This document shows, one piece after another, positions 9,700 to 63,749 of a DNA stretch of 64,000 bases. Position numbers and translations under genes: made by a program. A model generated the notes under the pieces. It ran no database searches. It was given only the letters and a program-made list of their open reading frames with translations, and was not told where the DNA came from. This stretch comes from Odiellus spinosus (Eukaryota; Arthropoda; Arachnida; Opiliones; Phalangiidae). The stretch spans positions 8,124,504 through 8,188,503 of the forward strand of contig OY987239.1 in assembly GCA_963920705.1 (NCBI GenBank). Direction: 5' to 3'. The number at the start of each line of letters is the position of its first letter. Position 1 is the stretch's first letter.

Positions 9700-10198
9700 T
9701 TAGAATAAAATCTTTTTATTTGGTAAAAATTATTTCAGAATTTGACCAAATGAAATAACCGAAATTCGACAAAAGCAAACCTAAGGCATTTTCAATTTTG
9801 ATCCACTTTTGTTGAATTCAAGTTATTTAATTTGCTCTAATTTGTCGAATTCTGTTGAAATTTTCTATTTTTGACCAAATTAGATTTATCCTCATTGGTT
9901 GAGCCGATATCTTTGGTTATTATATGGGAGAACATTGAAACGAAAAGTAAAACTGACGTCACAAGTATGTAAAAAACAGCCTCGCAATTTTTCTTCAATT
10001 TCTTCAGATTAAATTTGCTAGTTTGGCGGGAGATCAGTTTGAGTAAGGCCTTAATCGAGTCAGGCTGCATGTCTACTTTAAAAAGAGAGGTTACATGCCC
10101 TTTTAATAACGTCAAAAGGGCTGAGAATGGGGTCAAATTAATTGATAAGAAAAATACACAAATATGGCATATATCCTAAAGAGTCTACTGCAATTAGA

Positions 10199-13100
10199 CT
10201 AATTTAGGGTTTTTTCCTTAACTGTTCCAGGATTACAGGTTAATGGTAGTTGTTCACTACTGGCGTAATATACAGGGCGAAAAAAGTTCTGTTGAATTCG
10301 ATTGAAAAATATGGGGTTGTGAAAGTTTGGTGGCAATTGGAGATTTTGTGGTGAACAATAGGAGTAGTATATATGATCGTGGGAATCAGGTAGAAATTGG
10401 TAATTTGGTGGTTGACTATATGAGTAGTATATAGGATCATGGAAGTATGGTGGTAATTGAGGATTTTCTGCTTTATAAGAAATAAATTTTGGATCAGGCT
10501 CAGTGGTTAATTGAGTTTGTAAAGATAATTCGTTGGGTGTAATTATTTTTGGACAATGACTAGCAATAGACGAATTTCCTGATTCATTAGAAGTATAGGG
10601 CTCCGTGGCAGAGGTAATATAAGTATAGGGTTCCGTGGCTGAGGTAGTTTCAAAGTGAAATTCGTGGTATGAAGTAAATTTTCGATTAAGTTTATCACTA
10701 AACGTATTTTCAGATTCATTATATGCATAAGGCCCAGGGTTTGAGGTATTTTCGTTGCGTGAAATAAATTTTGAATTAGCAATACCAATAGAATTAACTG
10801 ATTCGTCAGAGCTGTATGTGCAGGGCTCTGTGGTTGAGGAAGCTTCTAGTTCTTTGTAAGAAATAAATTTTGGATTAGATTTGGTAATCACTGGATTTTG
10901 TGTCCTCGCTTCAGCCATTGTCAGACTTTGTTGCTCATTATTTGTGATTATGGGTGTGGGCTTAGCCGTAGGAAGATTTTGTGGCTCATCATAGAATATG
11001 ATTTTGGGCTTGTGCTTAGCGATCCTTACATTTTGTGGCTCATTATAAGTGGTGATATAGGGCTTTGGTATAGAGGTTGTTGGGCTGTCCGATTCATTAT
11101 ATGTTATAATTTTGTGCTTAGGCTTAGTGTGCGTTGTGATTTTGGGCACACTTTTAGTGATTGTGCATAATTCCCGTTGATTGTATGTTTCGATTCTGGG
11201 TTTTGTACTTTTTGGCTCACTTATTTTGGGTTTAGTGATTGTGGGGCTGTCCGATTCATTATAGGTTATTAATTTGTGCTTGGGCTTAGCGTGCGTTGTG
11301 ACTTTGGGTACACTCTTAGTGGTTGTGCATGATTCCTTTTGATTGTACGTTTCTATTTTGAGCTTTGGACTTTCTGTCTCACTTGTGGATTTTCCTGGCT
11401 TGTCATACATTGTGATTTTGGGTTTGGGCTTAGTTATTGTGTCATTTTTTGGCATAGTGACTGTGGGAGTTTTCGGCTCATTATATGTAATGATTTTAGG
11501 CTTAATCTTATCAATTGAGGGAATATCATAGGTTATTATTTTGCGCTTAGGCTTAAGGATAGTGCGATTTTCAGACTCATCACCAAAAATGAATTGGCGT
11601 TTGTGTTTTGTAACAATGCTATTTATCGGTTCATTAACTAAAACAATTTTTCTTTTGCGTTTAACGTCCCTGAGTTTTTTGGGAGCATCTTTCATTTTGA
11701 GCCTAGATTTAGTAATAGTAGGATTTTTGTGCTCATTAATATTAAAGAATTTTGCGTTATGTTTGGGTCTGTCAGAAGTATTTGTCTGTTCACCGCCTTT
11801 AATGATACGTGGGTTAGGCTTAGGGATAGTGGAGTTTATAGTATCATTGATAGTAATATTTTCAAGTTCATTGAAAGTAATGACTTTGCATTTGGGCTTA
11901 GATTTGGGAAAGCATTCACTGAAGGTAACTTTTTGCTTAGTAGTCTTAATGATTTTAGAGATTCCAACTTCATTATTGGTTAAACTATTGAAGTCATTAG
12001 TTTTCATTAGAAACCGATCATCTTCGCATGGCATAATCATTAAGTTCAATAATGTAGGTGGTTTAGTACTTGAATTTTCGAGGGTGATGTCTTTACTGGT
12101 CTTGGGATTGATTGCACCTTGATTTGTCCCAATTTGAGTAGATTCCAACAACGAATCAGATGAATTTCTCTTTGCAACGATGGGCTTGGACTTTAAGTCA
12201 CTTACATTTAAACTGTTTTGGTTAAGGCGAACATTGGAATTTCCCAAAAAATTTGATAAATATGGCTTTTCAATGAATTCATTGATTTTTGAGTTTTGAG
12301 TTAGGCTATGAGTTGAGTCCAACGCCGACTCATCACTAGAGTTTACAATGACTCTAGAGGGTGGTAACTCAATTGCTTGATGGTTTGGGCTAATATTTGA
12401 GTCCAACGCTGACTCATGACTAGAACTTTCAAAGACTTCATTGGGCATGAGCTTCCTTGTTTCTTGAGTTTGCCCAATGTTTGAGTTTAATGATGTATCG
12501 CAAGTTGAGTTGAAGGAGGAGTTAAGACTTTCAATAGATTCTTCGGGATTGAACTCCATTGTGTCATGAGTTGGGCTAAAAGTTGACTCCAACGATGGTA
12601 ATGATGAATGAAGCGTTGTGTTTACAGATAAACAATGACTATCATCAGTAACATCTTCATTAGGCTCAAGCTCAATTGTATCTCGAGTTTGGCTAAGAGT
12701 TGAGTACAATGGTGGCTCATGACTAGAGTTTGTAGATGAATTATGACTTTCTAAGTCTTTAGCAGATGGTAAGTCAATTACTTCATGAATAGGGCTAACA
12801 TTTAGGTCCAAAGCCGACTCATGACTAGAGTTTGTAGATGAATTGTGACTTTCTACGTCTCCAGCAGATGGTAAGTCAATTACTTCATGAATAGGGCTAA
12901 CATTTAGGCCCAAAGCAGACTCATGACTAGAATTTTGGAACATATAACTTTCAATGACTTCACTGGGCATGAGCTTCCTAGCATCTCGATTTTGCCCAAT
13001 GTGTGTGTCTAATGATGAATCTGGAGTTAAGTTTATGGACGAATTATGACTATCAATGACTTTATTTGTTTCGAACTCAATCGTGTCATGAGTTGGAGTT

Positions 13101-16100
13101 AAAATTGAGTTCAATGAGGGTAATGATGAATCCAGTGTTGTGTTTGAGGATAAATAATGACTTTCATCAATATCATCTTCATTACGCTCAAACGTGTCTT
13201 GACTTTGGCTAAGATTTGATTTGCCCGATGGATCGACAGTTGAGTTTCCTTTTCCGTGACTTTCAACAACTTCATTGGGTTTGATCTCAACTGCACCTTG
13301 TTTCATAATGCCTAGAGTTTGTTTAAGATTTGTATCTAATGACTCATGACTTAAGTTACCAGATATAAAATTACTGTCAACAGTGACTTCATAGGACTTT
13401 ATCTCAATTGAGTTAAGTTTTCTTTCATTTTGAGTTGGGTTAAGGTTCGAGTCATGCAATGATGACTCACGAGTACAATTTTGGAATGAAACTTGTGTTT
13501 CCATGACTTCATGGTTGGGCTCAATCTCACTTCTGTCACACTGACTATTTTGACTAGAGCTATAATTTAAGCTCAATTTTGTAGATGAATCAGAGTTTTT
13601 ACTTGAATTCTTCACGTTGCTGCAAGACTCCGGCTTAGCTTCATCAGGGCTTGCTTCAATATTGAAGAACCCTGGTCCAACAATGACATTGCATTCTTCG
13701 CAATAATACTGATTGGTACTGGTATCAACACACGTGACATGTCCATTGACGCAAGCGTACCATTTACCAATCCGCAATGACCTAGGTGTTAATACAGGGC
13801 AACTAATATATAGACTAGTGTAGTAGGTACCAACGATTAGGGCCAAATTATCCATCAAAAAATCCAAGTGGATGAAATCCATTTCTTGCAACTGTTTAGT
13901 ACTGAGAAGTATTTCTAAAATCTTATCGAAACATTTCATAATGCCTTGGTGGTTATTTTTTTGGACCAAAGATAATTTTTTTAAAACGGTGACCATCCAT
14001 ATTAAACGATTCAATTCAGCAGTTAAATCGTTTATTAACTGGGTGGTAAGAAAAGCCGCATCTTCTAAAACCTGAAAACAATTACTCTTTACAATAATGT
14101 CAACATTGACTTTAGGCTACCTAAGTTGATATGAAAAATTTTATTTAAGTGATACTAGACTCTTGTAACAAATTAGTTTTAGACGCTTCAGACTGTTATA
14201 ATTTGCGTAAAAACCTACTAAAACTCAAAAGGTTAAGATAATTTACAATTGGTTATCAAAGTCGCAAACTAGACTCACTAAGAGTTAATTAGTTTAGAAG
14301 AAATTTTAGAAAGTTAAAATTTTCAAGAATAGATGCAGATGCCATTGAAATATCGGAAAAAAATGGTTGTAAGTCAACAAGGAATATTAAGCGGGGATGG
14401 AACGGCGGCCACACGTGCGCGTATCATTCAAACTCAGCTTCTGCTTCCAATTCCCCTTTTTTCCCCCCTTATACTGGCTGTGGTTTGATCCCCCTTAATA
14501 TTCCTTGTCAACACTGACGGGTTTCGACTTCATTAGGACCTTTTTGCGAACCACTCAGTATTATTACGAGTTATTTTATATCTTAATACAAACGTGATAA
14601 AATCGTCAAATTAAAATAATGAATGCGTACCTTAATGATTTTATTTCCAGACATCTTGGCATAGTCTTTAATTTTCTTGACATAGAGTATGGAGGAAAAT
14701 GGTAGTACTTCGCTGAACACTTCCTTACATCCCTGTTCGACTTTGACAAGAACCTCAATCACCTTGGCTTTATTTTCAAAGTTAACTAAAGAATCTTTGC
14801 TTAAAACATCTAGTCCAAACAGTTGTTCCAATGTCAAATTCAAACAGCAGTCTAGTTTTGTTGATGAGAAATATGTTATCACGCCTGATTGATTCATATA
14901 CTTTGTTTGAAAATTTTTCAGATCCTTTAATAAAACAAAATGGGTAAATATTTTTGGCATATTATCAGACCACTGACTAATCAAATCCCCCTACCCTAAA
15001 GAGTTGGGCTTGAAGAGTACGATTGTCTTCAGGTTTGCCAAATATCTTTAACTTAATTTGCTCCACTCGAGAAGTGATTAACTTAACTTCAAGTTCAAAT
15101 CTAGAGTTGTTTCCAATGGGTGTCTGGCACCGCGGGCAGCAAATTTGTTTAATCTCCAAGTTAGAGTCGCATTGAGATTCTATCCATTTCGTAAAACCTA
15201 GTATGACATTCATCATTTGTTTCATTGTATACGATAGATTTAGTGTCAATGGAATGAGCAACTCAAAAGTTGGTTTTATACAATAATAAAAACGTTTTAC
15301 GATATAACTATTCAAAGATTCCCTCGGGTGAGTGTTTTTGCTTGTTTAATTTAGTTTATAAATTGATTGAAAAGGGCCGCAAGCTTTCCAAATTTAATAA
15401 ACTATTTTCTCAACCATGAAACCTTGGTAATTAAGTGAGGTTGTCACCGATTTTTCATTAATTCCAAATGGAATTGAGTAGCATTATTGAAAAGATTGTT
15501 AAAAATTATTCAAAATATATCTACATACGTCATAGGGAAAAATTACTATAGTAGTAAATATACAAATTTTAAAATAGACATTTACAAATTTTAAATAACT
15601 ACATCATGATTTTCGCGCGTTCTGTCACGTTGCACTGTCACTTCTGTGCAGTCTTTCTCTAAAAGTACTTAATCCAATACTATCTTTCGTACATAAATAA
15701 TCTTTAGTTACATTCTAGAAACCCTTACGGAAAAATGTTAGTCTGATCTGAAGAGGTCTTCAAGAACACTACGAAATTCTTGAGGAAGTCTTATTGATGT
15801 AATGGAAGACTTCCCCAGGGCCTTTTAGACTAAAGAAGACACCTGAAAGACTTCCCCAAGACCTCTTAAGACTAACTTTTTTTGGTAAGGGAATGAACAA
15901 TATTATATTATAATAGTGAGGCTGTCTCCATTTTTTTTCAAATGGTTATGGATTGTATTGTTAGTGTTAAGTAATGACACTGAAACATACCTTTCAGTTC
16001 GAAAATATGCTGACAATCTTCCAGTTCCAAATACCTCGCATTTTCCTTGTATTCTTGGTCACATAACTGCATTTTTAAGGTTTCTTTGTCACACACACGG

Positions 16101-19100
16101 CACAATGATGGACAAATCTCGCCGCACATCCCGATACACTTGTGTTTACAACCCAATTTCTTTTTGCAAACCTTATTACACGGTTGTCTATTGCAGGGCA
16201 TTCTGCAAGATTGGCTACACATGCTATGATTGCAATAAAAATCGCATTGTTCCTCACAAGGAATGCAAGGCTCTCCGCATGAATTAAAACATTTTCTGTG
16301 CCCACATCTAATCTCACATTTTCTCGAACAAGGTGGACAAGAGCCTTCGCAACAAGCATATTTGCAAGAATGGCCGCAAATAAGTTTTTTGTCACATAAA
16401 ACGTCGCAAAGAACGTGAATACGACCTTGGAAACATTTGCCGCAAGTACCGGAACATTTGTGACCACAATTTAGCAACGAATCACATTTAGACGAGCATT
16501 CGTCCATCAAATATTTGGCGTTACTTGACTTGTAGCATTGTGACGTTATAACGTGACCACATTCTAACTTAACTGAGATTAAAAACGAGCATTTGGTTTC
16601 ACATTCATTACCACACAGTTTATCACACGGATGGCCACAGCTTAGAGTTAATGAGCATGTTTCTTCACAAGCTCTCACAAGATTAACAGGGTTCTGGGAA
16701 GGACCACACTGGATTTTAATGGGGTGGTCGCATGATCCAATTACAACTATCCAAACCTTGCAATCGCCACAAGGCTCGTAACATTTTTTTTGGCACTGGT
16801 GTCCGCAGGGTAGTTTGAGATTACAAGGTTCCATGCATTGAACATCTTGTTCGTTTAGGTAACAGGGGGCCTCAACAAGGTGACAACATTTTGATAGCAA
16901 TTTGGTCAGCTAATTGAAAAAAAAAAAATAATAATAATAATAATAATTAGGTGGTGAAGGTTCATAAGTTGAAAAAGATGGTAAAATCTGGGTTACAAAT
17001 TCATATATTTAGAAAACTCAAATTTATGAGTTTATCAATACTAAAATTCACAGCAATGGTGTGTCCCTTATACATTCTTCAGACGAGGCGTAATTAGCCA
17101 TGGTTTAATCAGATTTAACCAAGGTTTACATAGCCTTTTCAGTTCAATAAACCTCGGTTTATTTTGTATAAACCATGGTTAAATCTGATTAAACCGGCAA
17201 GTTACGCATCGTCTGAAAAGGGTATTACCAAACAAAGTTAATCTTAAGAGGTCTTGGGGAAGTCTTTTGGGTGTCTTATGTAGTGTAGTCTTAAGAGGTC
17301 TTGGGGAAGTCTTCCATAATGTCAATAAGTCTCGGGGAAGTCTTGAAGACTTCCCCAAGACTTTTGTAGTGTTCTTGAGGACCTCTTCAGATCAGACTAA
17401 CTTTTTTCCGTAAGGTGTTTTACTTGGTGGAAGGTGTAATTGAGAAGGCTGGCTTGCCCTTACCGAAAAAAGATTGTCTGATCGGAAGAGGTCCTCAAGA
17501 CCACTATAAAAGTTTTGGGCAAGTCATTAAGTATACCCCAAGAATTCTTGACATAATGAAAGACTTCCCCAAGACCTCTTAAGACTACATAAGACACCCC
17601 AAAAGACTTCCCCAAGACCTCTTAAGCCTACATAAGACACCTGAAAGACTTCCACAAGACCTCTTAAGACTACATAAGACACCCCAAAAGACTTCCCCAA
17701 GACCTCTTAAGCCTACATAAGACACCTGAAAGACTTCCACAAGACCTCTTAAGACTACATAAGACACCCGAAAGACTTTCCCATGAGCTCTTAAGCCTAA
17801 CTTTTTTTGGTAAGGATAGGGACGTTGTAAATGGTATGTAAGCTGTCAGCCACTGGATAATTAGAGTCTACTTTGTAATGCATTGTTTAGATAAACCTAA
17901 AATGGTGATTTGTAATAAGTGTTTTAAACTCGCCCAAAAGCTAAATACAAAAATTTGTTATCAGATGTTGTTAAAAAAGATTGTTTTTGATCAAAATAAG
18001 TTGGCTAGAGAAAGCCTGTTGATCAATAGAATTATAGATCTTATATTTTTGGGGAGCCTTTCAAGCTCCTTTTCAAGAAAAAGAATTCACTGTGGCTACT
18101 TAGTCATTGCCCAAAATTTTTGCTGTAAAGAATTTATTAGTAATTCACCGTGTTAGCAGGGTTGAAAAGAAGCATGTGCTATTAATATCGATGGGCTGTT
18201 AAGTGGTGAAAAAAAAAAAAAAAAAAAAAAAACCACTGATGCCATAACTTTCTTTTCGAAGCCCTCCTTCCCTTACCAAAAAAAGTTAGTCTTAAGAGGT
18301 CTTAGGGAAGTCTTTTGGGTGTCTTATGTAGTCTTGAGAGGTCTTGGGGAAGTCTTCCATTACGTCAAGAAGTCTTGAGGAGGTCTTAAAGACTTCCCCA
18401 AGACTTTTGTAGCGTTCTTGAAGACCTCTTCAGATAAGACTAACTTTTTTCCATAAGGGTTACTCTACACCTCTTTTCGCTTGAGGGCGCCACTATCGTT
18501 AAAGGATTATATTCCATTTAATAATGTTTCTATATTTTTAATGATTTTAAAAAACAAAATGTGGAATGCTAGGCTTTCCTTAAATTTGGCTATGGACTCC
18601 ATGCACTTTGATGGGTTAGAAACTACCAGTCACCTTCTTTATTACAGTTGCAATCAAGATTTTTCTTTCGATCTTTAATAATTAGGAACTATGTGCTTAA
18701 TTTTTTTACATGATCAAAAACTCTCACCATGCTCAGAATTTACGTGACCAAACATTTGGATGAATTTTGCAAGAGACGCTGATAATCATTCTTAGAGGCT
18801 GAACATGGTACTCAGAACATAATGCCTATTTATGCATGTTCCATGTACTACAATCCACAAACATGTTCCTACCCCAATAGGCGTCACCAAAAATTGGACG
18901 TACCGTTGTTCACAGTTTAACGATATTATTCAACCAAAGTCGAGTTTTTAAAACTGTGTATTTTTATCTCTAAAAGTCATTATCAACTTAGGATTAACAA
19001 TAAATTCATTTGTCGAAGCTTTATGAGCATGAGCCATCTAATCTCCCTCTAGTTCACTCTGTCTCTACAAACTTAAAACTATCGCTATCTCAATTCCACA

Positions 19101-22100
19101 GACTTCACACTGTCGACTTAGGACAACTAACTCTTTTGCATGATCCGCTCTTATTTATATCCAAGCTTTGAATGCAACGTCTACCCCATATCGCGGAGGG
19201 TCTATCTTATTTAATTATGAGCTTTTGTATATAAAGCCCTCTTGTTATTTTTGCAAAATAAAGATATTTTAATAATAATCATGAAGATGACTTACTGTGA
19301 CAAAGCAAGTACCACAATCTTCACAGCACATCTTATTACACTGGTGTCCACGGGGGCACTCCCTGAGACAAGGCATAAGACAGTTCGATTCATTATGCTC
19401 GTTATCAATAGAATGGCATCTCTTTTCGCACAAGTGACCACATGACTTTCGGTAGCCGCAAGGTTTGTTGCAACCCCCACTCGCCACTTTATCAAAATCC
19501 AAGCAGTTTCTAACAGTCGTGATGTTACCGTGCTTCTGGCACTTCAGTTCCAGTTCTGATCCAATTTGATTGTGTTTAGTCAACTCTAAGATTATGTTTT
19601 GCCATAAGGGACTTTGCTGACCCAATAGGTCAAAATTTCCAAAGCAATAGAGACCCTTACGGGCTCGTGAAAGTGCTACACAGACACGATTTTCAACACT
19701 GAGGAATCCAATGCTGCTTTCCACGTTACTTCGAACCAGTGATAATAGAATGATATCATTCTCTTCACCTTGATAATTGTCAATGACTGTGGCTTTAACA
19801 TCGGCCACTGTTTCTGTCATGAGACGTTTTACAGCTAGCAATTGGCCCGTATACGAGGTAAGGATAGTAATTTGAGATGGTTCGTAGCCTTGCTGAATTA
19901 GGTACCTGGTGAAGAGAACCTAATTAAACCCACAAGAAAAGCCATAAAATAAACGTCAATGACAAAAAATAGAAGTATACACTGGAAGTTATGTACTCAT
20001 ATATTCTGTAAATACTATTATAGCTTTTTGTTACTTGTTTTTGTTCATATCAGGGCCTATATACCTTTAAATATCTATTTGTTTTAAATATCAATCTTTA
20101 CTACTCAAATTATTTAAATTTCAAAGCAATTCAATGGCAAACTAACATTACAGCTGAGTTTGCAGCCATTTAAATATTCTAGCGCAATCAAGGCATCAGC
20201 CCCATCAATGGTAAGCATGGCAACCTCGTGCTAGTACTATTTTTGACTATGATACCTGAGTAGAGAGCGTGAGATACATAAACAAGAAGCTCTGGGTCTG
20301 AGACAGGTAAAGGGGTATTAATTACAGTTAAGGAACAAGAAAACAGGCAGTTTGTTACACAGTTCGCAGCATATGGCCGTGTCTTCAATGTTTGTTAATT
20401 TCTAATTTATTTCAAAATTAGGCTTAGCTTAAACTAACCAGAAATAACTTCTCCGGGTGTAAAAGTGAATGATTTTATAGGTAATAGCTACTGTAATATT
20501 ATTTTCACTTTGATAAGTGATTTAAATATGTAGTTATTTTTTAATTAATATCTAGAAATTAACTGGTTTAAGTAGCCTTTTGATAACTCTATAAGAGCAC
20601 GAGAATACCCTGCTCCGTGATTGGCTAGTGAACTGGTTTTCAGAATGACAAAGTAGGTCTGCTTAAAACCAAAATTAATATTTTATCCATTTTTTATGCA
20701 ACTTTATATCATAAAACTCAAAATTCTTGAAACAAGGTCTCCTGGTCCCTAATGAGCTCTTGCGAAGAATCAAATTGGTTGTATTTTGGATAATAATCAA
20801 AAAGATTTATCAAACGTTGAACAAGGTACAACCAATGACGCTGTATACTTTGGAGTACTTTTCATTATTAGTTGTATCAGTAAGCCTTGGTAACTTTCTA
20901 GCTCCTGGTTATATATACTCAAACAGATTGTATGTTATACGAAGATTCACCTGCATAAGACGATGATGAAGGAAGCTTCATGTATATTTTCCTTGGAAGC
21001 ATTATTTGCTTGCTGCTGTTCATAATGATTGTGTTTAACAAAAAACACGTCTTTGACCATTCCCCGTACGTGACTATACTTTTCCACAGATGGGTGATTA
21101 GTAAGATCTCTATAGATATTGGGCACCAACAATCTCGAAATCTCTGGTCTCATTCTATGTTGAATTCCCAACTGGATAAATGGCATCCCATTCTTAACAA
21201 GCCTTTCGAAGAGTGATATCTCCAAGTTGAACTTCTTAGCCAGTTCGAATACACCTGGACTTGGTCTCAGTTGTTGATGGTCACCAATCAAAATAAGTTG
21301 CTCCGTGTGTGGGCTCAGTGACGTCACAATTTGGGCTTCCAATACTTCAGCCGCTTCCGCGACAATGACGATTTTCGATCTAATACTACTAACAAGGTCT
21401 CTGAAATTAGCAGCACCGGTAGTTGTCATGCCAACGACTAGAGTATTTTTGGCAATTATAATCTGTTCTTCAGTGCGAATTTCGTTCAAAGTGTAGATCT
21501 TGCTTTCGTATTGTAATTTTAATTCTAAAGCCATGTTCATAAAAAATATTTCTCAGACCTGAAGAATAACACAGTGACATAAAACCAACCTTCGATAGCT
21601 TGGGTTATTTCATTAGTGAAAATGTCATGCCATGTGAAATATAATTTCCACCTGTCGCTAGTTGACAACTTCCAAACATTACGCGTGCGTAGAAGATCCA
21701 GCGTTGATAATCGTGACAAGGCAATGTATTTTTCCCTGTCTAGGAAGTAGTTCATATTCTTCGAAGGAACGGAGGATGTGGATGTATCAGCCAGATAAAT
21801 ATCACGTTTTAGATTAGAAAGTTCATCAGCGATACTTGTTTGTGGATATGTGATATGGTAGTGTATTGTAGGGATGTCAACACGTGAGCAGCCACGGTCC
21901 AAGGTGTCTGATTGTTTTGAAAAATAGATTAGTTTATGGAGGATATAAGACTAACTTTTCGCCATTAGGTTCTCTAAGGAGACGAGGCGGATTAAGTCCT
22001 ACAGAACAAATTGTGTAGTCTGCTTGCAGGACTTTCAGCTCAGTTCTACTCCTAGCGTAACTCAAATTTCAAACTAATAATGAGCTAAAGAGGGTTTTCA

Positions 22101-25100
22101 ATAAACAGCAAAATTTCGTTTAACCCACGTTAACAGGATTCAAGAGGCAGAGAAGCAGATATGTAATGAATTTTATATGCCAATGGGACCACATACACTT
22201 ATAAATTCCTCCCTTCTGCCTTTGGTAAGGTAAATTAACTGTGTAGCAGAAAAGCGGCGCATTTAGGCCATACTACAGAGCCGCATTAAAAGACTTTTTA
22301 ACACTACTTTGCAGTTATTTCTGAGACACTGTACAAGTTGTAAGGTACGATTATGGATGCGAAACTAGACCAGATTCATGATGAAAATTATTAACTTTTA
22401 ACACATTGTGAGTAGTTTTATCAATTAAAACTAATTTAGCCCCTAACTGCGTGCGATGGAACATCCTTTAAATAAGCCTTGTTTTCCTTAGCATGCAACC
22501 ATTTTAGAGAACATTTGTTAGATGTAGTGGCAGGAATGTCAAACTGAATTAACCAGATATTCCCTTTAAAGGGATACCACAAAAACTTTAATGTGTTTTC
22601 ATGCGGCACATTTTAACTGTGTAAACTTATTAATTATAACATATCAGAGTCTAGTATACATTTAAGTTCTTCTTGGGGAATAAAAGAGTTACATAATTTT
22701 TAATTATGTTTTAGGTTTTTGCCTTTGCTTGGTGTTACGTAGTGTTCAGCCTCTCATACTATGTCCTAAAAATGAGCTATATGCAGACAGATCTGAACAG
22801 TTTTGCAGCAACAAATGTGTAGAAAAATGTCCAGGAAGCCAGCTTTGTCCTTTTTTGTACACCTATGGACAATGTTTTTGCAAAAAAGTCTTTGGCCATA
22901 AAGTGAGAATGCCAGTGATTTTTCATTATGTTCAAATATGGCAATTTAGAAGTATCCCTTACCGAAAAAAGTAACTCCGATCTGAAGAGGTCCTTAAGAA
23001 CGCTACAAAAGTCTCAGGGAAGTCTTTACGACTTCTGGACACAATGAAAGACCTCTTAAGACTACGTAAGACTTCCCCAAGTCCTCTTAAGGCTAACTTA
23101 TTTTGGTAAAGGATAAAACTTAAAGTGATCGCTGGTTCACTAACCCTGACTAATGGCACTGGTAAAATTCATCACAAAAGCTAATTATAAATGACTTCTA
23201 ATTGAATACATTTCCGTATACTCGCTCATGCAGAGGGGATGAAGTTGTGATTACAGATTTGTCATATTTAACAAGGATTTAAAACCATTTTTCAATAGTT
23301 TCCAGTAGAATTGAATTTTTATGCCGTATATCAAATAAATCATGATATTAATGTTTTAGGTTTTTGCCTATGCTTTGTGTTAAGTAGTGTACAGCCTCTC
23401 ATTCTCTGTCCAACAAATGAAGTATACAGTGATGGAGACAAAGTATGTGGGAACTGTTGCGCAAAAAAATGCCCAGGAACACAGATTTGTACTCTAGAAT
23501 GCCAAATTGGAATATGTGTTTGCAAACCAGGCTCCTACCGAAATAAATCGGGCACTGGCGTCCCTAAAGAAGATAGTGATAGAAAATAACAGTAATGAAC
23601 TTAATATGAATAAAATTCCTAAACTTTTCCAACTATGTTTTTTATCATAAATTTATTTAACGATGAATGTATAGCACATTATTATGTCTCTAATCATCAT
23701 GCTCATGATTTTGATCTGTAATGTTTCAATATTGGCCTACGCAAGCTTATAGTTCAGATTTTTCCCTTACCAAAAAAGTAAGTCTTAAAGGGAGCCCAAA
23801 GGGGGTGCAAAAGACCAATATGGGGGGGGGAAGACATTTTTAAAAAACGTCACTATCACGTGATAGGGAACTATTTTTCGTGAAGAGCCCTGGCGTAAAT
23901 AGGCATCATCCGGATCCGGGGTGGAGCCACGAGGCCCACGTTGGAGTAGGGAGTGGGAGGACTCGGGGAAACGCGGAATACTACATATCGGGGAACGCGC
24001 CCAAACACCTAGCGCCAGGATAGTTCTAGCGGCTATTTTGAACCCCACAATTGGTTCCCATGATGTCGACCCCTCTATTTGCACCCCTTTTGGGCTCCCT
24101 TTAAGAGGTCTTGGGGAAGTCTTTCGGGTGTCTTACGTAGTCTTAAGAGGTCTTGGGGAAGTCTTTCTGGTGTCTTACGTAGTCTTAAGAGGTCTTGGGG
24201 AAGTCTTTCTGGTGTCTTACTAGTCTTAAGAGGTCTTGGGGAAGTCTTTCATTATGTCAAGAAGTCTTGAGGTAGTCAAAAATTTCCCCAAAACTTTTGT
24301 GGTGTTCTTGAAAATCTCTTGCGATCCGACTGACCTTTTTTCGATACGGGATTGGTTGCTTTCAATTTGTATACACATGTTAAGAGCCTCATAATATTTT
24401 GGTACAAGCCCCAAATTGAGTAGGGTCGCATGTCTACTATAAATTCAAATGGGGTAAGTTTTATAAAAAAAAATATCACTTACCTTTAACTGCTATATCA
24501 GAGTTACTTATACACTCGCATTCAGAAGCGAAATTTTCACCAGTGTTATGTATAGTACTAGTGTCAAGCGATCGTTGATTTTGAGTACAATCATCATTGA
24601 TTTTGTTTTCCTTCAAATTTGCCCCTTCTAATCCCAGCCAAATAGAAAGGATTTCAAAAACATTGTTGGACTTTAAATGGCAATAAACTGGAGCATCGTC
24701 AAACAAACTAGAATACTGTTCAGGTTTTACGTATTTTTTGAGATCATTGGCGGTTAAAAAGTTTTCACGAGTTGATGTAAGTAAAGTTTCGAGAGTAATT
24801 ATCTCTGATATTAAAGATTCCAACGCATCTTTGGTGTCTTTAAAAATACTGCACACATAATTTGTTTTTCTGGTTCTGAGCTGTTTAATGTTCTTCATCA
24901 TATAAGGTTGCAGCTTTTCACTGCTGCTTTGGTCTCCAATACGAACCACCTTAAAGAAAAATACAACTTCTTTGTAACCGTCATTATACTTACGATCCCA
25001 CGCTTATACGAACAATGGCAGGTCACCCTCATGATTTAGCGTACACCTTTGATTCAACGATTTACATTATAAACAGGGTGGGATTTAGTAGAAGAGGGCA

Positions 25101-28100
25101 ACAGGGGCCTCCACAAAAAAGAGGACCCCACATTGTAAAAATAATAAAAAAATTCAAGATTATTAGGGGCCTCCAATTGAGCTAGCTCTACACAAACTAT
25201 AAATAAAGACAGGATGAACGATATATACTGCCAAATTGACAGCAGTTTGTTCCTTTCAAAAATAGTGTTATTGTGACCTTTGAAGTACTCTAGGGGGCTA
25301 TGTCAAGGTATTATAGGGGGTGTTTAAGGCGGGAGAATACTTAGTGGAATGATAGCGTATAGGGTGGCAGTCGATTATGTGATAGGATCGAGCCACTAAA
25401 CATATTATGATAAGTAAAGTGATATTAATTTATGTTTTTTCATGAATGGTTAAATATTACTAGTTCTATTTTCACTACCCACCAAACAAATTGCTAAAGG
25501 TTTAAAAAGTTCTCTAACAATTGCAACAAGACATTCAGCATCCTTGAATGTAAGCATTCTTTCGAAATAGATTCACCAATTTGCATTAGATTGGCAACTG
25601 ACGTAAAATCTAGATTATCCATGATAAACACTAAGCCTTGGTTGTTCTTTCAGTTAACATTGTAAGTTGTATTGATTATAACATCGTGTATGGATACGGG
25701 GAGTTCCGTTAGTAAGGTTGATGACGTAATTTCGTCATTTTAAAGAACAAAATAATTTAGGTCATGTTTACTAAAAAGGGTCTTAGTAAGAAATACACTT
25801 TATTGGAATACCTTTGGACACTATGTTACGTATGGGTATGCACCTACAGTTAATGAGATGATGGTTACCTTATCAGTGAATTTCAGGACACCTTCCAGAA
25901 ACTGGTCTAATGCGTGGTTAGTGTAACACACCACCATGATGGGAGTACCATCGTTCCATTTCCGCTTGTTGTGCAAGAGAATCTCCATAATTTTTAGCCC
26001 AACGTGAGTTTTTCCAGTACCAGGTGGTCCTTGAATAATACTTAATTTCCATCTTAAGGCGCTCTTTACCGCTTGAAGTTGAGATTCGTCTAAATTAAAT
26101 TCTTTAGTGGGAGGCCATGACGGATCATTATACAGCGAAACAGGGAAGTCACATTTTCCTTTGCGAGAGCTTTGACGACGTAAAATACTATGTATACAAT
26201 AGATGGTGTTTTTCTTCAGATAACCGGGTTTTTTCAAGTTTTTATTCAACTCCACTATGTACTCTTTCAAAGGGAAAGTATATTCGTTTATATTTTGCAA
26301 AGAGCTTAATACGCAGCGAGTCGCTTCAAAACAGGCTCCACTTTCGATCTGTTTTGAAAAATTCAAAATGCCACAATGACGTAAGAGGTAATGACATAAC
26401 ATCACATTCTTATATAACATGCATTTTGAGTCAAAAGTCAGTGTTATATTGAACTTGATTAAAATGAGGCTATCACGGAATGTTTCATGAACTCTAAAAG
26501 GAAACTGAGTAACCGTTTCGGAAAAATCATAAAAAAAATTATATGTTATAGAAAATAATTGCTACAACAGTAAAAATACATTTTATAATCGCCATTTTTA
26601 AAATTCCCTACAGTACTGCGTCTGTGCGTCATCAGTATGGTTGAGTGGCAGTTGTAGAGCCTCAGCCCCCTTACCGAAAAAAGTTAGTCTGATCTGAAGA
26701 TGTCCTTAAGAACACTACAAAAGTCTTGGGTAAGTCTTCAAGACTACCTCAACACTTCTTCACATAATAAAAGACTTCCCTAAGACCTCTTAAAAATACA
26801 TAAGACACCTGAAAGTCTTCCCCAATACCTCTTAAGACATTTTTAGGTAAGGGCCTACAGTTGATTCTCACGAGTGAAAATAATGTCGCGGTTAACTATC
26901 AAAGTGGCGAAATTAGACATGAAATTTCTTATTTATAAAGGAACTGATGATCCCAATGAGAGTTTGTGTTTGAAGTGGAGTGTATGAGCCTAAACAACAA
27001 AATATTTCACTCTATATACGATATTTCATCGAATAAGTTCATTATTGTTATCACGGAAAATGTATACAACTAGTAGAAACCAATTTATGAAGAAAAACAC
27101 GTGACTATGTTAAATAAAATGGATTTATTATAAAAACTGAGACAGTTCGAACCGCGGTTCGTTATTCAATCTGATAAGAGCTAGGTTTTACATTTGCTAA
27201 TATACTAATTTTAATGATATTGTTTTTTAGTATTTTTTAAGCCAATTGATTAACTGTTAATCAATTTTAATGATATTTTTTTTTAGAATTTTTTAAGCCA
27301 ACTGATTAACTGTTAATCAATTGGCTTAAAAAATACTAAAAAACAATATCATTAAAATTAGTATATTAGCAAATGTAAACCCTAGCCCTTATCAGATTGA
27401 ATAATGAACCGCGGTTCGAAACTGTCTCAGTTTTTATAATAAATCCATTTTTTTTAACATAGTCATGTGTTTTTCTTCGTAAATTGGTTTCTACTAGTTG
27501 TACGATATTTCGTCATCAATTCAACCACAAGAATTTTAAATCTAAAATGTCTTCTAAACAGATTTAGGCTTAGCAGGTTGTGTTCGCGACTTTGATAACT
27601 AACTGGAAATTACGGCGCAACATTTGGTGAGTTTTGAAATGGTTTTGAAGCATATTTTAAGACAAAATTACTTTAAAAAGTGTTATCACAGTCTAGCAAC
27701 TAAAACTTACCATAATAAACTTGTCATTTACGATATTCAACATGAAGCTAGGTTTTTCAAACTTGACACTGACAATCCCAACTTTCAATTGGGCAGGATC
27801 ATGGTGAATGACAGTTCCAAAATGAACAGAGTTGAACTCATCCGAAGTTAGACATACCAGCGTTCCATTTATAAGTCGTCTACTATTTTCCCAATCAAAC
27901 TGGCTGCACAGTTCAGAGTTGAACTGAAGCTCGTGCTCTACTCCATTAGCCGTCATAGTGACTTTTTTAATCCCTACATCGTTGTAGACAAAAATGTCTT
28001 GCGACACCTGATTAATGCCATTTAATCCTGATTAAATTAAAGAATGAGAGGAAAAGTAAATAAGTAAAATCGACCAATCATAATGGGAAAATGAAAACGA

Positions 28101-31029
28101 GGAACACCAAGAGAGCTTTCGATAGATAATAATCCTTTAAAATGTCATCTTACTATAAAGATTAATGCCTTCCCTAAGTGGACGGATAAAATCTTCCCGT
28201 ATTAGTCGAAATTGAGTTTCCAAGTATTCATGAACATTGCTGTAACATCCGTCGATTATATTTGGTTTCGAAACTGGACAATTATCCCAAAGGTCTTTGT
28301 AACTTGGGAATATAGGGATATCTCTGAAATTACTGGCAGGGTTCACTGTGCTTGGCTTACTTAAACTATATAACAAAATAAAGAGTATTTAACGTAGTGT
28401 TAGCATCCAATATGAATAGAACCACGTAGATGAAACCAATTACGTTTTAAGTTTACACACTGATCAATAACAATGTATAACTTTTGAGAGCATCGAGGTC
28501 ACAAATTTTAATGTGGGGACTTTTTAAAACATAGGACAACAAAGCTACATGCATACTAGGCCTAGGAATCGAAAGAAACCGTTGAAACACCAATCCTGCT
28601 TCGATAGCCAACAGATGGAACTACATTACATGAGTTTATGAGGATGTGTGATTAGATGGAGCTTTAAAAACCTCATAAATTTAAATATCGGTTGGTTTTC
28701 ATAACTCAAAATTTGTAGGGATACGCTAGTGTGAACCTGGCTAATGCAAAACTTTTCAAGAGCAGTACGTTTGCAGTAATTTTCAAATTGGGAATGTTTT
28801 TAACAGCTAGGACAATGACGCTACATATGTACTAGAACTTGCAGTCGATTCAAAACGTTTCGCTGCAGTCGTGTGATAGAGAACAACTTCAGAGACCAGT
28901 TTCAAACTGATTAGGCACTAGCAACCTACAGATTAAACTATAATAAACTGGTTTATGAAGATACGTGAACAGATGGCGCTTAGAAAGATTCCAAGCAATT
29001 CAAATATCTGTTTGATTTTGATTAAAATCGATTGGGATACGCTAGAGTGCATGTAGCTAAAGTAAAACTTTTCAAAAGCATCGAGTTCACAATAATTTTG
29101 GAATTATTTTTGAATCGAGATGGTGCTGGGAGAAACAGTAAACTAACACTGCATGGCTAGTACTGGGGATTTTTGTCATTAATAAAGCAACAGCACTTTA
29201 AATCCTCATCAAAAAAATTTCATATGAAGAAGTTAGGAATTCTTTGGGAACTCTTATGCTCTATGAAAAGTCTTGAAGAGGTTGTAAGACCTTTATGGCT
29301 AAGAATGTGGATTCCATGAATACAGAAAAAAATCTGAATGGAACTTCTTGAGGTAGGTTCGCAGCCTTACTCGATTAAGGCCTTGTCCAACTGATCACGA
29401 GCTTGATGCAAGATCAATTTGACAAGACCCTAATCGACTCAAGTTGGATGTTCACCTTAAGGGAATTGCACTGGCCACGGATGGGAATAAAACTTCAAGC
29501 AAGCCAAATTCTGGCTCTTTGTAATATAATCTAAGAGACTTACTTATCATGCAGTGTTTGATAGCGGAGAACAATATCGCTTAGATTGTCATCACCCAAA
29601 AGAGAGTCGGAAATGAAGTTTTTAGAATAAAGCAGAATCAAACAAATAGTGTTGTAAGATTTCTCAGGCAGTAAAAGTTGCATGGCTTCCATGATATCAA
29701 GCACGTATAGCTTAAAATTTAAGTGTTCTTCCTGGGAAAATTTGGTTTTTTTGATCAATTGCTTTACTAAAGTCTCCTTGAAAAACACAGAGCAATCATT
29801 TAATATTTCCTCTAAGAGCAATTTTAAAGACTCTCGGTGTATGGATCGGCAAGCTTTTGAAAGGATGCACAAACATAACATTAGCTCGCTCTTGCCCATG
29901 TTTTCGTTGCTTAGCAGTTTCTTAAAACCGCTGAAATTGAATGCTTGAAATTGAAAGATTTTGATTAGATACAATAACAATTTTTAAATGACCCTGTCAC
30001 TGACTTTTCATGAAAAGCAATTGAAGTTTGAGTAAAATTTTTGAAAATAAAACAAATTATTTTCAAAATATTATTAAACTTTTGGAAACCAAATTTCAGA
30101 TAATTCCACATCATTATGGTCATTAAAGTACATAAGAACATTGTAATACCCCTTACCATAAAAAGTTAGTCTTAAGATGTCTTGGGGAAGTCTTTTGGGT
30201 GTCTTATATAGTCTTAAGAGGTCTTGGGACGTCTTCCATTATTTCAAGACGTCTTGAGGAAGTCCTAAAGACTTCCCCAAGACTTTTGTAGTGTTCTTGA
30301 AGACCTCTTCAGATCAGACTAACTTTTTTTGGTAAGGGACAGCATTATCCTCTGCTACTATAGTCACATATTTTGTAACATGGCTAATTACAATGAGTAT
30401 GTATAAAAGACCATGGTTTACCTGTTGAAACTTAGAAGTGAACTAGTAAGAGATTTGACCTTTGTAACCAGATTAGGATTCTGTTAATATTGGGCACTCT
30501 CCCTTATTGGAAAATGTTTGTCTGTAGGTCCTCAAGAACTCTACAAAGGTGCTGATGACATCTTATAAAAAAGACATCCCCCAAGACCTCTCAAGACTGC
30601 AATAGACACCTGAAAGACTTCCCCAAGACCTCTTAAGACAGCATAAGACACCTGAAAGACTTCCCCAAGGCTTCTTATGACAAACTTTTATGACATTTCA
30701 ATTAAAATGGTAACAGGGTCACTTTCAATTTGCAACTAACCTTTAATTGAAAATAAAACTTCAGCAGGAGGTTTTTGACTCAGAAATTCCAAATGGTTGA
30801 GTGACATTTTATTTTGTCTCGGTTTTTTCGCAGGTATTTTAATGGCTTGATCATCGTAGGATCTCTTACCTCCAACCTTTTGACTTTCTGCTGCTGAAGT
30901 CGCTGCTAATGCATTAATTCGTCTAGCACGACGTTTAAGGCTACGTTTTGACGCTTTGGAAACCACTGGATTCGCTTTAGAGGCAGAATTATTACATCGT
31001 CTTTCCATTTTGCCATTTTTTGCGCCCAT
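10199..31029 (-). CDS. ZNFX1: ZNFX1-type SF1 RNA helicase with NF-X1 and RZ zinc fingers, copy A, with giant C-terminal tail
   Basis: Thirteen exons in transcript order: 31029-30741, 29943-29544, 28365-28154, 28027-27711, 26348-25869, 24949-24484, 21907-21590, 21551-20951, 19905-19296, 16909-15981, 15322-14995, 14924-14631, 14071-10199. They join in frame to about 3,038 residues; human ZNFX1 is about 1,900. The order is: a basic N-terminus; an armadillo-like region; the IPIFPSYKDL..REDFIRPLREGI block; SF1 helicase motif I GPPGTGKT (about residue 513); motif Ia VCYTNHALDQF; Walker B read as IVAEAAEVLEA (about 892); GDHQQLRP; QHRMRP; NYQGEENDIILL; VALSRARKGLYCFGNFDLL; NF-X1 fingers (CGHxCxxxC series) in exons 9-10; and an RZ-type finger, GKWYACVNGH...CEEC, in exon 13. 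Family members bind RNA at outer mitochondrial membranes or in germ granules and act in antiviral sensing or small-RNA inheritance. The exon 10/11 junction is uncertain. The start Met at 31029 follows a plausible UTR acceptor. Confidence 0.88.
10202..13650 (-). other. Low-complexity C-terminal tail of ZNFX1-A (about 1,150 residues, one exon)
   Basis: Directly after the RZ-type finger, the last exon stays open for about 3.4 kb. Tier 1 (about 13650-11960) is Ser/Asn/Thr/Glu-rich and acidic, built on degenerate units such as SHNSSTNSSHESALDLN and SPIHEVIDLPSA; two units near 12720-12920 are almost identical in DNA. Tier 2 (about 11960-10800) is Lys/Pro/Thr-rich and basic, with units like KPKIITYNEP and SPTITKPK. 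Tier 3 (about 10500-10202) is Tyr/Pro/Gln/Phe-rich (DHIYYSYCSPQN, NPIFFNRIQQNF). There are no cysteines in finger spacing and no recognisable domain. It is predicted from composition to be disordered. Copy B stops shortly after its finger and has no such tail. Confidence 0.85.
13655..13770 (-). other. RZ-type zinc finger of ZNFX1-A
   Basis: The segment reads KWYACVNGHVTC...YYCEECNVIVG. It matches the Trp-Tyr-x-Cys-x-Asn-Gly-His ... Cys-x2-Cys pattern found at the C-terminus of ZNFX1 proteins and in RNF213. It marks where a normal ZNFX1 would end; here the frame continues into the tail. Confidence 0.85.
14369..14518. mobile_element. Short inverted-repeat element in the last intron of ZNFX1-A
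   Basis: About 150 bp with inverted ends sharing CAAGGAATATTAAG and its complement, around a GC-richer centre (CACACGTGCGCG). No clear target duplication was found. It lies between exons 12 and 13 of ZNFX1-A. Confidence 0.5.
15722..15891 (+). mobile_element. CCTTACC-family MITE, copy 1
   Basis: Ends are CCCTTACGGAAAAA (left) and TTTTTTGGTAAGGG (right). It has a left arm GTCTGATCTGAAGAGG and a right arm GACCTCTTAAGACTAAC. It lies in an intron of ZNFX1-A. Plus here means the GATCTGAAGAGG end is on the left. Confidence 0.8.
17071..17224. mobile_element. Harbinger-like MITE (copy 2), inserted in the end of a CCTTACC MITE
   Basis: A 154-bp element from TACATTCTTCAGACGAGGCG to GTCTGAAAAGGGTA, flanked by TTA at 17068-17070 and 17225-17227. 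The left flank CCC-TTA and the right flank TTA-CCAAAC together rebuild the CCCTTACCAAA end of the neighbouring CCTTACC MITE, so it jumped into that terminus. Confidence 0.8.
17225..17415 (-). mobile_element. CCTTACC-family MITE, copy 2
   Basis: Left end TTACCAAACAAAGTTA, right end TTTTTTCCGTAAGG. Its left terminus was split by the Harbinger-like MITE at 17071-17224. It lies in an intron of ZNFX1-A. Confidence 0.8.
17457..17815 (+). mobile_element. CCTTACC-family MITE, copy 3, expanded by internal tandem repeats
   Basis: The longest uninterrupted copy (359 bp). Between standard ends it holds about five tandem units of roughly 42 bp, each containing GACTTCCCCAAGACCTCTTA and CATAAGACACC. Two alternating unit types repeat in the order A-B-A-B (17585-17770), which points to duplication of a two-unit block. 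It produces spurious LRGLGEVF-type open frames on the minus strand. Confidence 0.8.
18270..18459 (-). mobile_element. CCTTACC-family MITE, copy 4
   Basis: Left end CCCTTACCAAAAAAAGTTAG, right end CTTTTTTCCATAAGGG. It has the standard internal arms with the GGAAGTCTT...AAGACTTCC palindrome. It lies in an intron of ZNFX1-A. Confidence 0.8.
22715..22902 (+). CDS. TIL-type cysteine-rich exon 1 (partial gene, nested in a ZNFX1-A intron)
   Basis: After an acceptor TTTTAG the frame encodes a hydrophobic leader piece (FCLCLVLRSVQPLIL), then CPKNELYADRSEQFCSNKC and further cysteines (CPGSQLC, QCFCKK), and reaches a possible donor at AAA|GTGAGA. The CPxNE...C...C pattern is that of trypsin-inhibitor-like (TIL) domains, usually secreted protease inhibitors. 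It carries 7 cysteines against the usual 10 and loses the pattern towards the end. The first coding exon with the Met was not found. It is clearly a paralogue of the exon at 23360-23589 and may be decaying. Confidence 0.55.
22956..23112 (+). mobile_element. CCTTACC-family MITE, copy 5
   Basis: Left end CCCTTACCGAAAAAAGTAAC, right end TTATTTTGGTAAAGG, slightly shortened. It lies between the two TIL-like exons, so it has separated the duplicates or inserted after duplication. Confidence 0.75.
23360..23589 (+). CDS. TIL-type cysteine-rich exon 2 (3'-terminal, nested in a ZNFX1-A intron)
   Basis: After the acceptor ATGTTTTAG the frame reads FCLCFVLSSVQPLILC, then CPTNEVYSDGDKVCGNCC, CPGTQICTLEC and GICVCKPGSYRNKSG, ending KEDSDRK and a stop. 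It shows the spacing of a TIL domain (CPxNE, CxxGxCVC, G-Y/S-RN) with 9 of 10 cysteines; the final Cys is absent. The leader residues suggest that the end of a signal peptide is in this exon and that a short 5' exon, not identified, supplies the start. An AATAAA follows at 23609-23614. It shares a close DNA match with 22715-22902, so this is a tandem pair, either two genes or alternative terminal exons. Confidence 0.65.
23609..23614 (+). promoter_or_regulatory. Poly(A) signal of the TIL-like gene
   Basis: AATAAA 20 bases after the stop codon of the second TIL-like exon. Confidence 0.5.
23764..24350 (-). mobile_element. CCTTACC-family MITE, copy 6, split by a TTAA element
   Basis: Left end CCCTTACCAAAAAAGTAAG, right end GACCTTTTTTCGATACGGG. 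The right part carries four tandem units with AGAGGTCTTGGGGAAGTCTT (24104-24250). The copy is interrupted at 23789-24100 by an unrelated element inserted at TTAA. Confidence 0.75.
23789..24100. mobile_element. TTAA-flanked, GC-rich element nested in a MITE
   Basis: A 312-bp element with inverted ends AGGGAGCCCAAAGGGGGTGC and its complement, flanked by TTAA at 23785-23788 and 24101-24104. Precise TTAA flanks are the piggyBac signature. Its core (CCGGATCCGGGGTGGAGCC and onward) is much more GC-rich than the neighbourhood. The host MITE resumes exactly after the second TTAA. Confidence 0.75.
25000..25868. other. Intron of ZNFX1-A, nothing recognised
   Basis: No extra exon is needed here: exons ending at 25869 and starting at 24949 join in phase 0 to give the conserved helicase sequence. 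No complete repeat was recognised. Confidence 0.5.
26668..26853 (+). mobile_element. CCTTACC-family MITE, copy 7
   Basis: Left end CCCTTACCGAAAAAAGTTAG, right end ACATTTTTAGGTAAGGG, with standard internal arms. It is intronic in ZNFX1-A. Confidence 0.8.
27067..27500. mobile_element. Nearly complete palindrome (fold-back element) with TA flanks
   Basis: A 434-bp inverted repeat: CAACTAGTAGAAACC at the left and its complement at the right, with arms of about 200 bp that meet at a small internal duplication of TAAGCCAAYTGATTAACTGT. TA at 27065-27066 and 27501-27502 suggests a TA target. The arms differ by only a few changes, including a length change in a T-run. It lies between exons 4 and 5 of ZNFX1-A and could form a long hairpin in the pre-mRNA. 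Confidence 0.8.
28450..29130. repeat. Degenerate direct repeat of about 300 bp
   Basis: Three diverged copies are recognisable by shared landmarks: AAACTTTTCAAGAGC or variants near 28480, 28748 and 29067; GCTAGGACAATGACGCTACAT-like DNA near 28530 and 28808; and GGGATACGCTAG near 28720 and 29035. It lies in an intron of ZNFX1-A. It is too divergent to be a recent satellite. Confidence 0.6.
30150..30338 (-). mobile_element. CCTTACC-family MITE, copy 8
   Basis: Left end CCCTTACCATAAAAAGTTAG, right end CTAACTTTTTTTGGTAAGGG. The standard internal structure is intact. It lies in intron 1 of ZNFX1-A. Confidence 0.8.
30501..30690 (+). mobile_element. CCTTACC-family MITE, copy 9 (decayed)
   Basis: Recognisable by CCCTTATTGGAAAATG at the left and by two tandem GACTTCCCCAAG units at the right. 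The right terminus is eroded. It lies in intron 1 of ZNFX1-A next to copy 8. Confidence 0.6.
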
Positions 31030-47246: not shown

Positions 47247-47551
47247 CAAAACCTAGGTGCCTTTTACAAAAATTAAATTTATGGGAAAAACATGCAATTT
47301 TGAAATTTTCAAAAAAAAAAATATTTTAAATATTTGCGGCAGGCCAATATTTTTAAACAATTTCTTTTTTTTTTTAACTCCCCACGGTCTAATTAGTCAG
47401 AAAAAAGTGTTTGTTGGGTAAGGTAGGTAAAGTATAATCCTACCAAAACGCACAAGATATTTTATAACGAATTTTATAAATAAGACTACAAAATAAATTC
47501 TGGTGTCTTTTCGCAGGTTTATTCACTGGAAAATTGATCTCAGTCACAGAA

Positions 47552-51642: not shown

Positions 51643-51787
51643 CCCTTACCAAAAAAATTTAGTCTTAAGAGGTCTTGGGGAAGTCCTTCGGATGTCTTAT
51701 GTAGTCTTAAGAGGTCTTGGGGAAGTCTTAAAGACATTTTTAGTGTTCTTGAGGTCCTCTTCACATCAGACTAACTTTTTTCGGTAA
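51643..51787 (-). mobile_element. CCTTACC-family MITE, copy 14
   Basis: Left end CCCTTACCAAAAAAATTTAG, right end AACTTTTTTCGGTAA, where a Harbinger-like MITE interrupts the terminal GGTAAGGG. Confidence 0.8.
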
Positions 51788-57648: not shown

Positions 57649-57654
57649 TTTATT
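57649..57654 (-). promoter_or_regulatory. Candidate poly(A) signal of ZNFX1-B
   Basis: TTTATT on the plus strand (AATAAA on the minus strand) about 145 bases downstream of the ZNFX1-B stop codon. Confidence 0.4.
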
Positions 57655-63571: not shown

Positions 63572-63749
63572 CCTTACCGAAAAAAGTTAGTCTGATCTGA
63601 AGAGGTCCTCAAGAACACTACAAAAGTCTTGGGGAAAGTCTTTAAGATCTCCCCAAGACTTCTTGACATAAGGAAAGACTTCCCCAAGACTTTTTGACAT
63701 AATAAAAGACTTCCCCAAGACCTCTTAAGACTAACTTTTTTTGGTAAGG
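63572..63749 (+). mobile_element. CCTTACC-family MITE, copy 17
   Basis: Left end GCCTTACCGAAAAAAGTTAG, right end CTAACTTTTTTTGGTAAGG. It has one extra GAAAGACTTCCCCAAGACTT unit compared with short copies. It lies in an intron of ZNFX1-B. Confidence 0.8.

Follow-up and report, generated by a model that had tools for sequence, protein, structure and literature searches.

The window analysed here is a stretch of 64,000 nucleotides from the arachnid Odiellus spinosus (contig OY987239.1 of assembly GCA_963920705.1, positions 8,124,504 to 8,188,503), and all coordinates below count from its first letter. Its minus strand carries two diverged copies of ZNFX1, an RNA helicase that is conserved, acts in immunity and small-RNA inheritance and in human is 1918 amino acids long. 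ZNFX1-A, the copy that chiefly concerns us, occupies the interval from 10.2 kb up to 30.0 kb or more and extends 1,150 residues past its RZ-type zinc finger; ZNFX1-B, which is tailless, occupies that from 57.8 kb up to 63.5 kb or more. The intron-split structure of the genes marks the DNA as eukaryotic. All features of the two copies described below lie on the minus strand.

Two diverged copies of ZNFX1

Copies A and B share 48-60 percent identity across their aligned helicase segments. When the helicase exons were compared with the Protein Data Bank (PDB), the best match in both cases was 9q9z, a ZNFX1 chain (E 1.9e-61 for copy A and 1.7e-76 for copy B, against 5.2e-10 and 3.7e-16, respectively, for the runner-up). 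This entry, which we take to be vertebrate ZNFX1, was the top PDB match for three exons of the ZNFX1 copies. Since the helicase core also scored above the Pfam cut-off for AAA_11 and AAA_12, we assign it to the superfamily 1 (SF1) helicases, closest to ZNFX1. An intact Walker A motif (GPPGTGKT) was read in the copy A exon at 25821-26561, an assignment backed by the PDB match, in which the alignment starts at residue 592 of 9q9z. The vertebrate protein resembles both copies in the helicase exons and, as far as the available descriptions of it go, in having a C-terminal RZ finger.

One exon of copy A with 57 Cys in 323 residues, a candidate for an NFX1-type zinc-finger array, is homologous between the two copies, and the first fingers of copy B align to 9q9z. 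A Pfam scan in which an NFX1-type array was sought returned no family for the exons at 15938-16909 and 58398-59870. The copy A exon at 29543-29983, a candidate for an ARM-type N-terminal domain, yielded nothing credible from the PDB (lowest E 0.28). No relative of the copy A helicase exon turned up in a viral contig collection, which for an animal gene says little. An Rfam scan returned no family at gathering score, and a tRNA scan returned none.

ZNFX1-A remains open beyond its RZ finger

The last exon of copy A starts at 14071 (TTTTCAG/GTTTTAG) or possibly at 14038; both sites are in phase 0 with the donor at 14631, and the choice between them leaves the tail unaffected. The exon falls within a stop-to-stop open reading frame (ORF) of 1305 codons at 10199-14116. 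Its conserved start (13652-14071), made up of helices and the RZ finger, is homologous to the C-terminus of copy B, as judged from comparison of the copies and from an AlphaFold model. The RZ-type motif CxxxH...CxxC occupies ORF residues 122-142 and is followed by 1,150 residues, beginning with SPDEAKPES and ending at the stop codon at 10199-10201, which form an open, repeat-built and predicted disordered C-terminal extension (10202-13651). A candidate poly(A) signal, AATAAA, is found at 9715-9720, 481 bases past the stop, and an ATTAAA at 10107 is a possible alternative. In copy B, by contrast, the last exon (57797-57972) encodes the RZ finger and then stops, with a TGA (57799-57797) five codons past the last Cys of the finger and an AATAAA at 57654, about 145 bases beyond. 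Copy B ends at the finger, and copy A does not.

The three forward frames of the tail contain 0, 53 and 177 stops, and among 200 first-order Markov sequences the in-frame stops numbered 68.9 on average, with a minimum of 45; the longest open run in any frame of these sequences was 229 codons, compared with 1,150 in the tail. An earlier note on this DNA had stated that the last exon stays open for about 3.4 kb past the RZ finger, at the point where copy B and known ZNFX1 proteins end. The first two parts hold for the window, with 1,150 codons and no stop against about 69 simulated, and the third agrees with a review that, in the portion available, places the RZ finger of human ZNFX1 at the C-terminus and lists no tail after it. 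We conclude that the observation of a long open tail after the RZ finger is real and confirmed.

The tail contains three compositions with separate repeat units

The tail was divided by a multinomial change-point test at two places, residues 565 and 885, neither of which was equalled in any of 300 shuffles. This bears out the three composition steps that had been described for it; further candidate cuts were weaker and were equalled by 195, 26 and 66 of 300 shuffles. Tier 1 (residues 1-565; 11957-13651) is acidic and Ser/Asn-rich with a net charge of -49, tier 2 (residues 566-885; 10997-11956) is basic and rich in Lys, Thr, Ile and Pro with a net charge of +39, and tier 3 (residues 886-1150; 10202-10996) is composed mainly of Ser, Pro, Thr, Asn and Tyr, with 13 percent Phe plus Tyr and a net charge of -10. 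Phe and Tyr together number 19, 16 and 35 in tiers 1, 2 and 3, respectively.

Three repeat units were identified, each scored with its own sequence included. A 34-residue acidic unit has nine matches at 12299-13201, some of which overlap by a few residues, and two of its copies, 102 bp apart, are nearly identical. The 16-residue unit (consensus pKIITYNE..n.Titk) has fifteen matches at 10505-11890, the last of them weak, and a 20-residue aromatic unit (QlpPnFHdPIYYsysqp) has four at 10241-10459, the last two overlapping. When the tail was scanned once for the 16-residue unit with four seeds and a cut-off of 10, 14 units were found, four being the seeds, whereas shuffled controls at the same cut-off gave a mean of 0.07 matches and never more than one. 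This unit crosses the border between tiers 2 and 3 and reaches residue 1049, and the tiers are therefore a matter of degree. Likewise, the earlier description of the repeats stands only in part: tier 2 is indeed basic, but its repeat extends into tier 3, and tier 3 is enriched in Phe and Tyr, but the dense aromatic repeat is limited to residues 1065-1137.

Short motifs were assessed with 12 patterns over the three tiers, the counts being uncorrected and some patterns having been designed after the repeats were seen. An array of SUMO-interacting motifs was rejected, as the two VIDL matches were equalled by 54 of 500 shuffles; a looser pattern fitted to the acidic repeat occurred seven times (0 of 500 shuffles) and restates that repeat. 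The SH2-type pattern YxxP occurs, on this count, four times in tier 2 (2 of 500 shuffles), is explained by the 16-residue unit and is kept as a lead. There are 24 N-x-S/T sites in tier 1 (3 of 500 shuffles), in a protein that is expected to be cytosolic.

We also considered whether the tail is a known domain and rejected this, since a Pfam search with the tail exon gave only sub-threshold matches, to a Sina finger (E 0.095) and to the RZ finger (0.12), and a PDB search gave only SYK, at E 0.79 or worse and on residues preceding the tail. Nor does the tail appear to be shared with another gene of the window, including the Thr-rich ORF at 47480-50101: with the tail itself masked the best tblastn match scored 23.1 bits, and 30 shuffled tails scored 20.8-27.7 bits. 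A blastn search of the masked window gave three matches of 20-29 bases (E 0.19-0.65, without a shuffle control). Viral and prokaryotic contig collections yielded pattern matches but no relative of the tail, which again says little.

The tail is predicted to be disordered

FoldIndex was negative for all three tiers (-0.08, -0.19 and -0.06) and lay between +0.16 and +0.30 for three other stretches of ZNFX1-A; of 22 windows placed along the tail, however, two were positive, both near residues 501-601. An AlphaFold model was built from 14071-10472, which covers the 140 residues preceding the tail and the first 1,060 of the tail, as a single sequence with no alignment, and the last 90 residues, which hold most of the aromatic repeat, fall outside it. 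Helices and strands were placed within the first 123 residues of the model (block means up to 60), and tail residues 1-1060 contained no helix and no strand of three or more residues. Low confidence is expected for a single sequence, and we place weight on the contrast within one model. Disorder of the tail, as proposed previously, is thus predicted by both approaches, and by these predictions the tail is a long stretch of disorder in which sticker-like motifs recur, as they would in a condensate scaffold. The suggestion made at the same time, that blocks of this kind could drive condensate formation or charge-patterned self-association, fits this anatomy.

Enzyme signatures of the two copies

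Motif II of the helicase reads VAEAAE in copy A, with an Ala codon at 21358-21360 that was located by alignment of the copies and with the PDB, compared with VEEAAE in both copy B and 9q9z. In UPF1 the residue that aligns with the altered one is the Asp of motif II. Copy A therefore has a Walker A motif together with a broken acidic pair, and lacks the full signature of an active SF1 ATPase, whereas motif II of copy B keeps both acids. In UPF1, according to the available text of the study, ATP hydrolysis stops when the Asp and Glu of motif II are both changed (PMC5196439).

The RZ-type finger of copy A (13691-13753) has zinc ligands at 0, 4, 17 and 20, and that of copy B has them at 0, 4, 21 and 24 from the first ligand. 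The ligand order C, H, C, C is common to both and to the transthiolating RZ E3 module of RNF213, for which the accessible part of the source gives the ligands as Cys4451, His4455, Cys4471 and Cys4474, the catalytic residue as Cys4462 and the base as His4483 (PMC12075652). Judged against these published residues, the catalytic Cys (position 11) and the base His (position 32) are absent from both window copies: position 7 is Cys and position 11 is Ser in each finger, and no additional His is found within 59 residues in copy A or, in copy B, in what remains of the protein. The Pfam scores for RZ were 12.5 (copy A) and 21.5 (copy B), against a cut-off of 27. Neither copy thus combines the zinc ligands with the Cys/His dyad of an RZ-type E3 ligase, although the ligand order is kept; human ZNFX1, in contrast, is said in the same text to share the dyad. 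Loss of RZ activity is not certain, because a Cys-to-Ser change of the RNF213 catalytic Cys is reported there to have kept autoubiquitination. Given the motif II Ala and the RZ finger without a dyad, copy A may be more scaffold than enzyme.

A scaffold-like reading of ZNFX1-A

Our preferred reading, to which we give a probability of about 0.42, is that ZNFX1-A is a diverged and probably enzymatically weakened paralogue that gained a long, frame-maintained disordered repeat extension after its RZ finger, and that it would act in a scaffold-like manner. The homology, the open in-phase frame, the three tiers, each with repeats of its own, and the loss of the first acid of motif II in copy A are read directly from the DNA; we think it most likely that the tail is a genuine disordered extension of a ZNFX1 paralogue, plausibly one that serves as a self-association scaffold. 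Under such an arrangement the helicase core of copy A would still hold RNA, and its ATP hydrolysis might be slow or absent, while the tail would supply many weak contacts, with the acidic tier set against the basic tier. Some 15 KIITYNE-like and four IYYSY-like hydrophobic or aromatic motifs, spaced by Pro, Lys and Thr, could serve as further contacts, and RNA-bound molecules would as a result cluster or become tethered to a granule. Much of what the earlier note had proposed therefore stands, namely the gene identity, the open frame, its position after the finger, the three tiers and the predicted disorder; the note was silent on the motif II change of copy A, on the loss of the RZ dyad in both copies and on a frame discontinuity in copy A that is described below.

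ZNFX1 has been described, in the available sections of a review, as an RNA-activated ligase that forms higher-order assemblies, reported for the human protein on RNA; RNA ubiquitination is contested, and the dispute over the assemblies sets direct ubiquitination of RNA against quarantine in aggregates (PMC13270118). A more specific scheme, which we consider unlikely, is that copy A lost its ATPase signature after the duplication and acquired a disordered tail of three parts by which RNA is clustered directly, the RZ dyad having been lost earlier and lineage-wide; the tail would then replace in cis, by charge and aromatic contacts, the ubiquitin role reported for mammalian ZNFX1.

Nematode Z granules suggest themselves as the nearest working comparison. 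Caenorhabditis elegans ZNFX-1 is a helicase that marks these granules, which are tuned by the disordered protein PID-2, and granule size, number and (as cited) fluidity depend on that protein; no disordered driver of Z granules was known at the time, according to the part of the report available (PMC7849312). PID-2/ZSP-1 is encoded separately, whereas the disordered region of ZNFX1-A would be in cis, and the likeness between the two is one of anatomy and not of sequence comparison. In the open-licence literature we found no ZNFX1 with a comparable tail among the matches listed, in agreement with the earlier statement that none with this layout was known; PMC9200344 and PMC11236994 describe no tailed ZNFX1 in the portions available. 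If the preferred reading is true, a copy A with its own disordered scaffold, an altered ATPase motif and an RZ finger lacking the known dyad, next to its tailless sister B, would let assembly be tested apart from catalysis. The tail is in addition a clear case of protein growth by in-phase repeats of three kinds.

The frame of the tail is kept and selection on it appears weak

The 60 best internal nucleotide repeat shifts of the tail are all multiples of 3, and the seven with more than 70 percent identity are real duplications. Tandem arrays in the tail have periods of 60, 102 and 162, with matches of 72, 94 and 85 percent and indels of 0 percent. Comparison arrays elsewhere in the window with matches of 80 percent or less contained indels in 10 of 12 table rows, several of which describe one array, and only the 60-bp tail array is equally diverged. 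When four repeat pairs were simulated under neutrality, 19 of 2000 runs were free of stops and 22 of 500 had a BLOSUM mean equal to or higher than that observed. Ratios of nonsynonymous to synonymous change (dN/dS) ranged from 0.33 to 1.16 across fifteen overlapping repeat pairs chosen at the nucleotide level, and the proportions of nonsynonymous and synonymous differences (pN and pS) over whole units were 0.42 and 0.66 for the 16-residue unit, 0.51 and 0.58 for the 34-residue unit and 0.34 and 0.69 for the 20-residue unit (three of four units).

A number of results weigh against the scaffold-like reading. Among weak repeats, codon periodicity alone is enough to favour shifts of 3. When the four simulated pairs were taken together, the share of synonymous change was not significant, being equalled or exceeded in 159 of 2000 runs; only in the basic-tier pair was synonymous change in excess (29 of 2000), which comes to about 0.06 after correction for four tests, and the other three pairs fit neutral change (973, 1437 and 415 of 2000). 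The column-wise pN/pS of the KIITYNE core, 0.33-0.52 over 14 of 15 units, is biased by the picking of units for protein similarity. By codon usage the frame of the tail outscored all 26 non-coding stretches compared with it. Two incorrect frames of the tail, one forward and one antisense, scored higher still, however, and codon usage was rejected as a coding test because it does not discriminate. The UPF1 evidence concerns a change of both acidic residues of motif II, and copy A alters one. Constraint along the tail, for which a dN/dS test had been proposed, is therefore hinted at by the basic-tier pair and otherwise looks neutral, and selection appears weak overall. We read the frame as kept while the sequence drifts, with constraint at best visible on tier 2.

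An alternative, which we regard as possible though somewhat unlikely, is that the tail is neutral ballast: a stop was lost, repeats grew in frame, and the product is translated and tolerated but not used. Constraint in at most one of four repeat pairs would fit ballast, as would the partly young age of the copies (95 percent identical across 75 nt) and the finding that tblastn of the tail within the window gives nothing above shuffled tails. Less easily accommodated are three compositions with separate units, given that no shuffle of 300 equalled either cut, and a KIITYNE-like core that recurs in about 15 spaced copies.

A frame discontinuity precedes the last exon of copy A

A further point against a functional copy A is that its ORFs at 14977-15345 and 14583-14990 lie in different frames. 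The discontinuity, at 14977-14999, adjoins a G run, and its counterpart in copy B is one open exon when the translations are compared by eye. We noted by eye a candidate 70-nt GT-AG intron (14925-14994), in phase 0 on both sides, that would join the two ORFs; its acceptor is unusual in having an A before the AG. Other short introns of the locus measure 65 nt (21525-21589, by eye) and 81 nt (62054-62134). By eye, the sequence that the 70-nt intron would skip bears a weak resemblance to copy B, and the break could therefore also be a disabling frameshift or an assembly error, although we treat it as a candidate intron. Phase-compatible splice pairs were listed for A1/A2, A3/A4, A5/A6, A6/A7 and A9/A10 and were found by eye for A2/A3, A4/A5 and A7/A8, which makes eight other junctions.

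We consider it distinctly unlikely that copy A was recently disabled, in which case its frame break, its missing acid in motif II and its degenerate RZ finger would be signs of decay and its tail the relic of a frame. Such a history would account for two out-of-frame ORFs where copy B has one exon (the homology of the skipped part having been judged by eye), for the unusual acceptor of the candidate intron, and for the motif II Ala and an RZ score below the Pfam cut-off. It is countered by the phase-0 GT-AG stretch that rejoins the frames at a size near that of the 65- and 81-nt introns, by the compatible splice pairs at the eight other junctions, by 1,150 codons without a stop, and by the absence of the RZ dyad from copy B too. 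Skipping of the tail in the main transcript, by exitron-type splicing or early poly(A) addition and with the protein ending near the finger, is improbable: GT and AG sites do exist (two donors that are probably real score 4.6 and 5.5, and the best one in the tail 3.6; the acceptor score gives no separation between probable and chance sites) and there is one AATAAA at 13066, but a 3.4-kb intron has no reason to stay open with in-phase repeats, and the tail holds one AATAAA against 6.6 and two ATTAAA against 4.6 expected from base composition.

Other features of the window

The Thr-rich ORF at 47480-50101 (plus strand) is a single mucin-like frame of 873 codons with a hydrophobic start resembling a signal peptide. 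It contains about nine Thr/Ser-rich repeats of 46 residues (138 bp, no indels), and the opposite strand carries an open ORF of 214 codons. At 32252-33109 there is a 25-bp satellite of 34 copies with 97 percent matches, in which all three plus-strand frames are open throughout. Dispersed minisatellites of the AAGACTTCCCCAAGACCTCTTAAGAC type, which look related by eye, are found at 17557-17799, 18288-18356, 24101-24250 and 30570-30682, with more of the same type at 41602-41671, 51661-51731, 55739-55820 and 63650-63726. Finally, a cytochrome P450 exon lies beyond the end of copy B, at 54803-55213 on the minus strand (Pfam p450, 4.6e-07).

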